A DNA stretch of 47,238 nt from a virus. The position numbers were made by a program, and so were the translations under genes. A model generated the notes under the pieces. That model had not been told where the DNA came from and made no database searches. It was given only the letters and a program-made list of their open reading frames with translations. Below are positions 8,702 to 11,756 of the stretch, in pieces; positions within the stretch are counted from its first letter, which is position 1; every line of letters starts with the position of its first letter. The stretch is taken from IMG/VR virus record IMGVR_UViG_3300009285_003700, positions 1 to 47,238 of that record; one strand, written 5' to 3'.

Positions 8702-8959
8702 ATGATAAACCCAGAAGAAAAGTTGACTAAAGAAATGGATACAATCTTAACACTAAACAAAGCTGATGATGAAAAGAATAAATCTATAGCCACTAATACA
8801 AAGAAAAAACAATACACTATAAAACTTTGCGAATTCTATGCCTTTGGAAGCGAAACAACAATATTAGAAGCAAATAACGAAGAAGAAGCTATTGATTTAG
8901 CAAGGGAATTATACCCATCTGCTGAAGGTTATGTAATTATAAAAATAAAAGACTTATGA
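8702..8959 (+). CDS. Hypothetical protein, first gene of the cassette array
   Basis: An 85-residue protein. The N-terminal 40 residues are charged and probably disordered. The C-terminal part (about 38-85, YTIKLCEFYAFGSETTILEA then EEAIDLARELYP) looks like a small alpha/beta domain of the kind found in phage early proteins. It begins almost at the predicted transcription start and overlaps the next gene by four bases. Function unknown. Confidence 0.55.
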   Translation: MINPEEKLTKEMDTILTLNKADDEKNKSIATNTKKKQYTIKLCEFYAFGSETTILEANNEEEAIDLARELYPSAEGYVIIKIKDL

Positions 8960-9216
8960 CCAAGAACATAGAGGAACTAAAGAGAGAGGCGTGGCATAAC
9001 CCTAATTGCCCTGCGACAGATATTAAAACACCTGCTGATAAGGAGTTTGAGGTTTGTGACTGCTTGTATAATTGGGCAATGGAGGCCATAGACCTCGCCA
9101 CTGAAATAGAGAGGAAACGTTGTGCGGAGATTGCGAGAGTAAAGGGTGAAGCTAACCCTGTAGATGGTCATTTATTCTTTGAACTCGCCACCGCCATAGA
9201 GAAGGAGGATGTATGA
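8956..9216 (+). CDS. Small early protein with shared N-terminal tag
   Basis: An 86-residue protein starting MTKNIEELKREAW, the first copy of the shared N-terminal peptide. It contains HNPNCP and CDCLYNW (possible metal site) and helices with IERKRCAEIARVKGE. The phrase A-x-E-x-E-R-K-R recurs in the protein at 10173. The start overlaps the previous stop by four bases (TTATGACC). No known family. Confidence 0.55.
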   Translation: MTKNIEELKREAWHNPNCPATDIKTPADKEFEVCDCLYNWAMEAIDLATEIERKRCAEIARVKGEANPVDGHLFFELATAIEKEDV

Positions 9217-9413
9217 CCAAGAACATAGAGGGAGAGAAGACACCCTGCCAAACTTGCCAAGGAGATGGTGTTATCCCGATAGGAGAAAACCTAGTATCTC
9301 TTGATATGGCGATAGACGCTGGGGATAGAAGTATGGAAAGGATGCGCCATAGTTACGCATACGGTCCTTGTGAAGATTGTGAAGGAACAGGAATAAAGCC
9401 ATTAACCCTATGA
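9213..9413 (+). CDS. DnaJ-type zinc-finger small protein with tag
   Basis: A 66-residue protein beginning with the shared tag MTKNIEGEK. It contains CQTCQGDG and CEDCEGTG, two C-x-x-C-x-G-x-G motifs that together form one DnaJ-like zinc site. It has no J domain. Such stand-alone zinc motifs are frequent in phage early genes and probably mediate protein or nucleic-acid contacts. It overlaps its neighbours by four bases and ends PLTL, part of the recurring ACCCTATGACC junction. Confidence 0.6.
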   Translation: MTKNIEGEKTPCQTCQGDGVIPIGENLVSLDMAIDAGDRSMERMRHSYAYGPCEDCEGTGIKPLTL

Positions 9414-9619
9414 CCCATAAGCACACAAAAAAATCAGGAGATAACAGCGAGAGAGTAAAAATGGTTGGTGAAATAAAACGCCAGACTGTTAAACAAATAC
9501 TTATTGCCGCTTATTGTGTCGGATGGGAAATGGGAGTTAAGGGGTACAAACTGACCCACGAACAAGTAAAAGAGCACTGGTCAAGATTAGATAAATTATT
9601 AACTGAGGAAACCCTATGA
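9410..9619 (+). CDS. Small hypothetical protein (69 aa)
   Basis: A 69-residue, mainly helical protein starting MTHKHTKKSGDNSE, a diverged form of the tag, and ending TEETL at another ACCCTATGACC junction. The middle (IKRQTVKQILIAAYCVGWEMG) and LTHEQVKEHW suggest two or three amphipathic helices. No recognised domain. It sits between the zinc-finger gene and the adenine methylase. Confidence 0.5.
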   Translation: MTHKHTKKSGDNSERVKMVGEIKRQTVKQILIAAYCVGWEMGVKGYKLTHEQVKEHWSRLDKLLTEETL

Positions 9620-10176
9620 CCACTAACACAGAGGGGGAGAAGAAATACCAAGTAATATACGCTGACCCACCGTGGAGTTATAACGACAAAATGAGTGGAC
9701 ATTCTTTTTCCCTTGATCACGAATACGAAACTCAAGATATTGAGTGGATTAAAAATCTTCCAGTGAACAATATAGCGGGGAAAAATAGCTACTTATTTTT
9801 ATGGGCAGTATCTCCACAACTACCAGAAGCGTTGCAAGTAATAGAGAGCTGGGGATTTAAGTATAAAACAGTTGGTTTTTGTTGGGTAAAAGAATATAGG
9901 GAAGGAGGGTTGTTTGTTAAGAACCTTGGTAGACACACTATGGGCGGAATGGAATTACTTTTACTTGCCACTAAAGGTTCGCCACAAAGAGTAGATAAAA
10001 CTATTCGGCAAATCGTTTTTGCTCCCAGGGGTAAACACAGCAAAAAGCCAGGGGAAATAAGAAATAGGATAATAAAACTAACAGGAGATTATTCCCGTAT
10101 TGAGTTGTTTGCGCGACAAAAAACCGAAGGCTGGGATGTATGGGGTAATGAAGTAGAAAGCGATATAGTTCTATGA
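9616..10176 (+). CDS. MT-A70-family adenine DNA methyltransferase
   Basis: A 186-residue protein. After the shared tag MTTNTEGEK it reads YQVIYADPPWSY, with the D-P-P-W catalytic motif at about residues 17-20. NSYLFLWAV, the HSKKPGEIR motif (about 133-141) and IELFARQ...GWDVWGNEV complete the MT-A70 signature. It transfers a methyl group from SAM to adenine N6, most likely in phage DNA, to avoid restriction or mark replication state. The tag is not part of the enzyme fold, so it was added at the junction. Confidence 0.88.
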   Translation: MTTNTEGEKKYQVIYADPPWSYNDKMSGHSFSLDHEYETQDIEWIKNLPVNNIAGKNSYLFLWAVSPQLPEALQVIESWGFKYKTVGFCWVKEYREGGLFVKNLGRHTMGGMELLLLATKGSPQRVDKTIRQIVFAPRGKHSKKPGEIRNRIIKLTGDYSRIELFARQKTEGWDVWGNEVESDIVL

Positions 10177-10589
10177 CCACTAACACAGAGGGGGAGACAT
10201 GCAAACACTGCGGCAGAGACATCGCTATTCGTAACCCTAAAGGATACTGCGACCACCTACGATACCCAGAAGCCTGTGAGGTGTGTAGCACCCATAAGAA
10301 CATAGAGGGGGAGAAGTTTACCGACAATTATTTTATGGCAACTAGCGGGAAAAACGATATTCGCAGAAAAGACATCAAGAAAGCGATTATCCAAGCCACT
10401 GAACTAGAGAGAAAGCGGATACTTAGCGAAATAGACAGCTTAAAAGGACAAAAACATTTATGTGAAAGTCCTGAAGGTGTTAAGTGCGAGTATGAAGATG
10501 CTTTGGACTATATAAAGAAGATAATTATACCCATAGAAATACCATTATTCAAAGGCACAAAAGAGCAATTAGATAATTTACATCTATGA
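10173..10589 (+). CDS. Early protein with two copies of the tag
   Basis: A 138-residue protein starting with the tag MTTNTEGET, then CKHCGRDI and ACEVCSTH (a probable zinc ribbon). At residue 39-46 it has a second, internal tag HKNIEGEK. The C-terminal part has ELERKRILSEIDSLKG, similar to the protein at 8956. The internal tag suggests that two formerly separate cassettes were fused in frame. Function unknown. Confidence 0.55.
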   Translation: MTTNTEGETCKHCGRDIAIRNPKGYCDHLRYPEACEVCSTHKNIEGEKFTDNYFMATSGKNDIRRKDIKKAIIQATELERKRILSEIDSLKGQKHLCESPEGVKCEYEDALDYIKKIIIPIEIPLFKGTKEQLDNLHL

Positions 10590-10601: not shown

Positions 10602-10637
10602 AAATGTAATAAATAATTTATTAACTAATAAAATAAT

Positions 10638-11000
10638 ATGAAAAATGTACTAGAAACAGTCACTATTAATAATATAGAATACGCCCCAGCAAATGAGAAA
10701 GCAGAAAAAATAAATGGACTAGAGTATTGCATTGTCCGCACTTATTCCGCCGGAGTATTTGCCGGATATGTGAAAGAAAGAAAAGGTCAAGAAGCAACTT
10801 TGTTAAAAGTTCGTCGTCTCTGGTACTGGTCTGGGGCAGCATCCCTTTCTCAGTTATCAGTTGATGGTGTAAGTAATCCTGGAGATTGTAAGTTTCCAGT
10901 AGAAGTAGAACGAGTTGAGCTGACTAATGTCATTGAGGTTTTACCAGTAACTAAAAAGGCTCAAGAGAGTATTGCTAATGTAAAAATATGGCAGATATAA
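10638..11000 (+). CDS. DUF6948-like hypothetical protein
   Basis: A 120-residue beta-rich protein: VTINNIEYAPANE, YCIVRTYSAGVFAGYVKER, LLKVRRLWYWSGAASLSQL, and FPVEVERVELTNVIEVLPVT. This resembles small phage proteins annotated as DUF6948, which I recall with moderate confidence. The W-Y-W-S-G-A core is conserved in that group. No ribosome binding site is visible. Its 3' end overlaps the Gly-rich repeat gene by 13 bases, an association I recall from other metagenomic phages. Confidence 0.55.
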   Translation: MKNVLETVTINNIEYAPANEKAEKINGLEYCIVRTYSAGVFAGYVKERKGQEATLLKVRRLWYWSGAASLSQLSVDGVSNPGDCKFPVEVERVELTNVIEVLPVTKKAQESIANVKIWQI

Positions 11001-11215
11001 CTGCTCAAGATATGCATGGCGATGGCTTTGGCGATGGCTCTGGCTCTGGCTCTGGCTCTGGCTCTGGCTTTGGCTCTGGCTATGGCTATGGCGATGGCTA
11101 TGGCTCTGGCTCTGGCTATGGCTCTGACTCTGGCGATGGCGATGGCTCTGGCTCTGGCTATGGCTATGGCTCTGGCTCTGGCAATAGCTATGGCTATGGC
11201 TATGGCTCTGGGTAA
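10988..11215 (+). CDS. Gly-Ser/Tyr/Asp dipeptide-repeat protein
   Basis: A 75-residue protein starting MADITAQDMHGDG. It then consists almost wholly of Gly-X dipeptides, where X is Ser, Tyr, Asp or Phe. It is encoded by a hexanucleotide-type array GGCTCT/GGCTAT/GGCGAT (about 11022-11212). The chain is probably disordered and flexible. The array keeps several other frames open, but the ATG overlapping the preceding stop and the Gly-X frame support this one. Slippage of whole 6-base units would change length without breaking the frame. Function unknown. Confidence 0.6.
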   Translation: MADITAQDMHGDGFGDGSGSGSGSGSGFGSGYGYGDGYGSGSGYGSDSGDGDGSGSGYGYGSGSGNSYGYGYGSG

Positions 11216-11229
11216 TTAACATTTAACCT

Positions 11230-11394
11230 ATGACCCATATGAACGAGGGTGAGAAGAGACTAAGAGGTATTTGGCAGATGATAGAAGACGCATTAAAAAT
11301 AATATTTGGTGCTTTAATATTTATTTCTCTCCCGATAATTCTATTAATCTTAGCTGGATACACTATTTCAATAATGAAGTTTTTAACCCTATGA
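11230..11394 (+). CDS. Small tagged membrane protein (54 aa)
   Basis: A 54-residue protein starting MTHMNEGEKRLRGIW, a diverged tag. One long hydrophobic segment follows (about 24-50, IIFGALIFISLPIILLILAG), and it ends FLTL at the next ACCCTATGACC junction. It overlaps the following tagged gene by four bases. It is probably an inner-membrane peptide. Function unknown. Confidence 0.5.
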   Translation: MTHMNEGEKRLRGIWQMIEDALKIIFGALIFISLPIILLILAGYTISIMKFLTL

Positions 11395-11756
11395 CCAAGA
11401 ACATAGAGGGGGAGAAGAAAGACGAAGTTACAATTAGAAGGCAAGTAGCTTGCCCTGTATCTCACCAAAATCTTATGTACTGCCAGCAATGTGGATGGGG
11501 AGTTATGAATCCAGGGAAAAAGGATGACTGCCAAGAAAAACTAGCCCACCTGGAAAACTTTTATAAGAAGTTCGCTCAAGCTGAATATGACAGAGGTGTA
11601 TGGGATGAGCGGAACCGAATGTTAAAGGATTTGCCGGAGGAAGGAATAAAGTGGATGCAGGAAGGACACAATAAAGACAGAAAAGGATATACCGAAGGCT
11701 ATAACCGTACCCTCCAAGAAATTAAAAAAATAATAATTAATCCTTATGATAATTAA
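11391..11756 (+). CDS. Tagged zinc-motif early protein
   Basis: A 121-residue protein. The start at 11391 is chosen because it carries the shared tag MTKNIEGEKKDE and overlaps the previous stop; longer readings would run through the membrane gene. It has CPVSHQNLMYCQQCGWG and DDCQEK (possible zinc site), then helices (HLENFYKKFAQAEYDRG) and YTEGYNRTLQEIKK. No known family. It is the last clear tag copy in the array. Confidence 0.55.
   Translation: MTKNIEGEKKDEVTIRRQVACPVSHQNLMYCQQCGWGVMNPGKKDDCQEKLAHLENFYKKFAQAEYDRGVWDERNRMLKDLPEEGIKWMQEGHNKDRKGYTEGYNRTLQEIKKIIINPYDN

Follow-up and report, generated by a model that had tools for sequence, protein, structure and literature searches.

A repeated coding segment at successive stop/start junctions of small early genes in a metagenomic phage record

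Described systems and the present array

Repeated elements at gene junctions or gene starts have been described in several phages, and we compare them here with a repeat in the virus record IMGVR_UViG_3300009285_003700, a single metagenomic record whose 47,238 bases constitute the window, i.e., the whole stretch of DNA that was analyzed. In this window, at least six adjoining small genes with mostly unrelated bodies open with the same copied start segment of 27 to 33 bases. Among the described arrangements, the mobile regulatory cassettes of T4 and the ATGA chain of the lambda nin genes place repeated junction elements, possible recombination handles, between small dispensable genes; the nin genes also overlap stop and start codons, and the T4 elements are intergenic promoter/stem-loop units. 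To our knowledge, neither gives a common N-terminal tag of such length.

The start-associated sequences (SAS) and extended SAS (ESAS) of cluster K mycobacteriophages are 13 bp long (5'-GGGATAGGAGCCC) and are located 3 to 7 bp upstream of the start codon (PMC3203893). Like the repeat described here, SAS are short, lie in one orientation at the starts of many nonstructural gene families, contain a Shine-Dalgarno (SD)-like core, and are rare outside their own phage group (PMC3203893). The present repeat likewise precedes different gene families in one orientation (all on the + strand, with mostly unrelated bodies), but it departs from SAS in position and consensus, starting near the stop/start overlap and running about 24 bases into the coding sequence, which gives a common peptide. 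The initial annotation had set the repeat apart from known start-associated repeats, and this distinction was confirmed, as the repeat lies at and after the start codon. A further comparison is with the mosaicism promoted by Rad52-like recombinases (Red-beta, RecT, and Erf; PMC3945230, PMC2327257), to which the locus is similar in its phage RecT, in short identical stretches at module boundaries, and in the exchange of whole units. Unlike in that mosaicism, the short homology here is coding and recurs from boundary to boundary within a single genome, and exchange is what we infer from it. In the reading we favor, short-homology recombination has spread a cassette junction that at the same time provides a coupled start; we regard this reading as evenly poised between right and wrong.

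Copies of the repeat in the window

Early genes in the window run rightward (about 2.4 to 13.9 kb) and virion genes leftward. The copies at gene starts all lie on the + strand in the early region, the exception to the start position being one internal copy. The repeat consensus, ATGACCAAGAACATAGAGGGGGAGAAG, is placed at and downstream of the start codon, and the copies (t1 to t8) are as follows.

t1, 8956..8982, + strand: MTKNIEELK; ATGA overlap with the open reading frame (ORF) ending at 8959
t2, 9213..9239, + strand: MTKNIEGEK; the body is a CxxCxGxG small protein
t3, 9402..9424, + strand: left half only, TTAACCCTATGACCCATAAG...; probable diverged member
t4, 9610..9642, + strand: AACCCT plus MTTNTEGEK; starts the MT-A70 gene
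t5, 10171..10199, + strand: MTTNTEGET; 10171 to 10197 identical to 9614 to 9640
t6, 10290..10316, + strand: THKNIEGEK; internal, in frame, no start codon
t7, 11230..11256, + strand: MTHMNEGEK; starts a 54-amino-acid putative membrane peptide; no ATGA overlap
t8, 11383..11417, + strand: TTAACCCT plus MTKNIEGEK

The common peptide M-T-[K/T]-N-[I/T]-E-[G/E] opens five genes, at 8956, 9213, 9616, 10173, and 11391, whose starts are near-identical in DNA (ATGACC-AAGAACATAGAGGGGGAGAAG or a ACTAACACA variant). When the 21-mer ATGACCAAGAACATAGAGGGG was searched with up to 3 mismatches, exactly these five sites were matched, with 0 expected from 100 shuffles, in agreement with the initial annotation, which had reported at least five genes with a common start tag. 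In a profile scan of 4,402 possible start codons, these five main members scored 35 to 42 bits, and still 24 to 36 when each was left out of the profile. The annotation had also mentioned two more genes with diverged forms. In the scan, gene 11230 came next (18.6 bits versus 9.1 for the best nonmember), its tag having one codon inserted and one deleted relative to the repeat, and it was counted as a member. Gene 9410 (MTHKHT...) scored −3.6 in the ungapped scan, which is not significant, and has only the left half of the junction, with 14 identical bases (TTAACCCTATGACC) in common with 11391 and 13 with 11230; based on this partial identity, it was counted as a probable diverged member. The tag that had been noticed inside one gene was indeed found in frame, at 10290 to 10316 within gene 10173. 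Candidate members at 7285 (MTITFEG) and 11819 (AACCTATGACC within another ORF) were rejected (profile rank 72, chance level), and iterons or a replication origin were ruled out by the irregular spacing (257, 403, 557, 117, 161...) and the single orientation at starts.

The repeat array is real and unusual. An assembly artefact or chance is hardly credible: the window comes from just one metagenomic virus record, which leaves room for artefact, but no match is expected by chance, and eight copies with private variants lie in continuous ORFs. Moreover, an assembler would not readily be misled by a repeat of just 27 bases.

Copied DNA, its junctions, and the tagged genes

The Thr codon in the tag is ACC in all 8 copies, versus 23% of Thr codons (p about 8e-6), the GGG codon occurs in 4 copies (p 9e-4), and the differences between copies are mostly amino acid changing (AAG/ACT and ATA/ACA). 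Uniform codons together with amino-acid-changing differences thus argue for copied DNA rather than for a peptide under selection. In addition, the adjacent t4 and t5 have a private variant in common and are identical over 27 bp around the MT-A70 gene, suggesting local copying or else an insertion between direct repeats. It is correspondingly improbable, in our estimate, that the peptide serves as an address tag, e.g., a capsid-targeting sequence (CTS) loading diverse proteins into the virion, as in the T4 internal proteins and P1 DarB. The T4 CTS is likewise one short N-terminal peptide on unrelated proteins and alone is conserved among the highly diverse T-even internal proteins (PMC3012670), and packaging of P1 DarB needs just 30 N-terminal residues (PMC9024508); a Mu-like protease gene is present in the window, and the tag is an unstructured extension in the MT-A70 fold model. 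However, the T4 CTS acts at the peptide level, whereas the repeat here, which is not known to be linked to the virion, is conserved in DNA across the start codon and upstream into nontag DNA. Besides the codon pattern, one copy is internal, no obvious T4-type cleavage motif is seen except in t1, and an MT-A70 DNA methyltransferase would be an atypical cargo.

Overlap of the start with the stop of the upstream, codirected gene through ATGA is read at six of the seven starts, as in coupled gene pairs, the exception being 11230, where the upstream ORF ends at 11215. Conservation before the start covers no more than about 6 bases (three copies have AACCCT and one has AACCT), in which 67 identities were counted versus 32.9 expected from other ATGA sites of the early region (0 of 5,000 draws, p<0.0002). 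Therefore, given these 6 bases and the ATGA overlaps, the repeat straddles the junction at the DNA level. The proposal that it reaches from the end of one gene into the next was accordingly upheld in outline, although the part in the upstream gene is short and not present in every copy. A weak extra similarity was observed at −20 to −12 from the tagged starts (8936 to 8943, 9193 to 9200, and the same place elsewhere; p=0.001), with unconserved sequence between it and the AACCCT block. Positions 10585 to 10595, at the end of gene 10173, read CTATGACCTAG, a two-codon ORF resembling an empty junction; ATGACCTAG, a stub behind the ORF that ends at 10589, may represent such a junction, but its 8 bases are not significant.

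Foreignness of the tag to the gene body was assessed for the gene that starts at t4, whose body is the following.

9643..10176, + strand: MT-A70 family DNA methyltransferase body (Pfam PF05063, E=1.4e-23)

Homologues of this protein begin at the equivalent of 9643 (M-KKYQIIYADPPW) and end like the phage protein (EVESDIxL). Among 80 relatives fetched and 79 scored, the tag was found in none (0/79); 20 of them begin with Met exactly at the last residue of the tag, and the others carry unrelated short leaders. Given the native C terminus, the MT-A70 ORF is thus complete except for the replacement of its start codon and is bounded by a junction on either side; the two junctions contain perfect 27-bp direct repeats (9614 to 9640 and 10171 to 10197). 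In the fold model (mean predicted local distance difference test [pLDDT] score, 85), residues 1 to 5 are disordered (pLDDT<50), and the first strand begins at residue 11. The tag is a foreign add-on before a complete MT-A70 domain. It was also considered whether translation really starts beyond the tag, with GAGGGGGAG serving as the SD sequence; reading of the sequence ruled this out, as no in-frame ATG, GTG, or TTG occurs before the essential motifs in the MT-A70 gene or the CxxCxGxG gene; in these genes, the tag must therefore be translated.

For the other tagged bodies, no homologues were found in GenBank phages or IMG/VR in a search that did not include genes 9410 and 11230, and foreignness of their tags is proposed by analogy; the earlier claim that the tag sits before complete domains thus holds for MT-A70 and is extended to the rest by that analogy. 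Gene 10173 encodes a complete CxxC-CxxC zinc-ribbon-like segment followed by the internal tag t6 and a second gene-like body, and it is probably a gene fusion of two cassettes joined after loss of a stop and a start. The G+C content of tagged bodies ranges from 0.29 to 0.51. If one gene with a native MTKNIE(E/G)(L/E)K start had simply been duplicated and the bodies had then diverged, similarity among the bodies would be the trace. The 8956 body and the segment after 10316 do share a AIDLATEIERKR-like helix (score 49, reached by 0 of 200 shuffles), with weak similarity to the 11391 body (score 39, 1 of 200 shuffles); the first two may be true paralogues, and one of them may have been the original owner of the tag. 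However, the MT-A70, zinc-ribbon, and CxxCxGxG bodies have no clear similarity to these or to each other, although their tag DNA is nearly identical, and the one short hydrophobic match of the membrane peptide (11230) to the post-10316 segment was taken as compositional. Whole-gene duplication, which the annotation had named as the alternative, is thus excluded for the MT-A70, zinc-ribbon, and CxxCxGxG bodies and nearly so for the membrane peptide; refuted as a complete account and very doubtful overall, it is still possible for t1, t6, and t8.

Translation, recombination, and distribution

Upstream SD pairing is weaker than −5 kcal/mol at five of the seven starts, four of which overlap the upstream stop, and only t2 has a strong upstream SD sequence (AAGGAGG). 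Coupling has been documented for ATGA overlaps, and some gene pairs allow reinitiation without an SD sequence (PMC6728339). With most starts (five of seven) poorly served by upstream SD sequences and all but one overlapping the stop before them, translational selection for the copied start is plausible, and translational coupling would be the plausible reason for keeping it. It was also considered, by analogy with cluster K SAS, whether the repeat is itself a start-associated translation element. Its RNA would then help ribosomes to initiate or reinitiate where stop and start overlap, for example by way of GAGGGGGAG, a purine-rich, SD-like stretch located about 14 to 22 bases past the start codon, or by binding a factor. 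Such an element would fit the SD-like pairing downstream of the start (−5.8 to −10.4 kcal/mol in six of six clear copies, next to mostly weak upstream SD sequences), as well as the restriction to early genes of different families in a single orientation, as in SAS. We nevertheless consider it unlikely, since GAGGGGGAG lies inside the gene, where it could not pair in the usual initiation geometry (SAS lie upstream), its purines simply encode E-G-E, the internal copy t6 has no start codon to serve, and no conserved RNA structure was found (z from −1.05 to 1.34). The hairpin of t8 (CTATG/CATAG) is broken in t4, t5, and t7, and an RNA hairpin at the start codon (CCCTATG/CATAGAGGG in t8) was rejected as not conserved, with energies like those of shuffles.

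The candidate agents of a spread of the junction by short-homology recombination are encoded in the early region, a recombinase being present as in Rad52-like mosaicism.

2477..3265, + strand: RecT-family annealing protein (Pfam PF03837, E=1.1e-19), candidate agent of short-homology exchange
3934..4554, + strand: PD-(D/E)XK nuclease (Pfam PF12705, E=3.5e-7), probably, from its position, the partner exonuclease of RecT

In the proposed course of events, a unit of 27 to 33 bp would have been copied repeatedly within the phage; it would extend from the final bases of an upstream ORF through the overlapping ATGA to codon eight of one ancestral gene. Incoming or rearranged whole ORFs would have been joined to it with replacement of their own start codon (M-KKYQ... 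to ...EGE-KKYQ...) by RecT-type annealing, for which the phage RecT and nuclease are candidates. Copies would have been retained for placing ORFs that lack a ribosome-binding site of their own where translation is coupled, and the peptide would be mainly a by-product. This history, RecT as its agent, and coupling as the selected benefit are what we infer. Because all copies are in the same frame relative to the gene, recombination between them would cleanly delete the intervening genes and leave a complete tagged ORF, and all 19 pairwise recombinants tested (19/19) give an intact tagged ORF. Different genes follow the junction within the phage's own genome.

Several points weigh against such a history. 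Red-beta pairs over a segment of 23 to 27 bp, and RecT, Red, and Erf promote mosaicism (PMC3945230), but only t4/t5 reach the Red-beta length with an exact identity of 27 bp, the remaining pairs having 7 to 21 bases; older copies may have diverged since. Removal of the SD sequence upstream lowers coupling in most tested E. coli pairs (PMC6728339). The foreign tag was checked for MT-A70 alone, the other searched bodies being without detectable relatives. Moreover, IMG/VR and GTDB-species genomes yielded neither a copy of the junction repeat beyond chance nor a relative in which another gene follows this junction, although near relatives may be outside the searched set; within that scope, the suggestion of a conserved exchange site used by related phages was not substantiated. 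One locus (L006) has MT-A70 and DUF6948 neighbors in common with the window but carries no tag.

Four GTDB matches to the peptide pattern (L165 to L168) were rejected, as they equal the chance estimate and form no arrays, one being an internal Met. About 240 further phage loci yielded no convincing comparable array of common nonhomologous N termini: those of L124 appear to belong to a single homologous, DUF551-like family, and L162 has a dispersed repeat instead.

Between gene 10173 and gene 11230, positions 10638 to 11215 hold a DUF6948 gene followed by a gene of Gly-Asp/Ser/Tyr dipeptide repeats. This pair is kept in L006 (83% DNA identity over 237 bases), and similar dipeptide repeats follow DUF6948 relatives in L103, L124, and L145; the two are possibly a conserved gene pair. 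An NAD-dependent epimerase (PF01370) is located at 7839 to 8657. On the − strand of the virion region, four genes (16861 to 18972, 26301 to 28358, 28360 to 31953, and 36831 to 37934) contain SPSxSPSK (Ser-Pro-Ser-Lys) repeats, which in some of them extend over hundreds of residues, with long opposite-strand ORFs as a by-product. Several glycosyltransferase-like genes and one class I methyltransferase-like gene were recognized by eye among the virion genes (32002 to 36777 and 45847 to 47191, − strand), and two ORFs near the right end have the motif MKGGNTD in common.

The array may bear on the open question of how small accessory genes enter phage genomes and are expressed there with operons left undamaged. 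It is conceivable, though we lean against it, that the array is used as an exchange device, i.e., a dedicated frame-preserving gene-swap system in which coding repeats at successive stop/start overlaps would be the homology handles with which a RecT-type recombinase inserts, removes, or replaces small genes. If true, such a system would always leave an intact, coupled, N-terminally tagged ORF, and accessory gene uptake would have a simple, concrete means in a repeat by which every join regains its stop, start, frame, and coupling. As MT-A70 is flanked by the t4/t5 direct repeat, its excision can be tested directly. More generally, common N termini of phage proteins can be junction footprints, not homology or signals.

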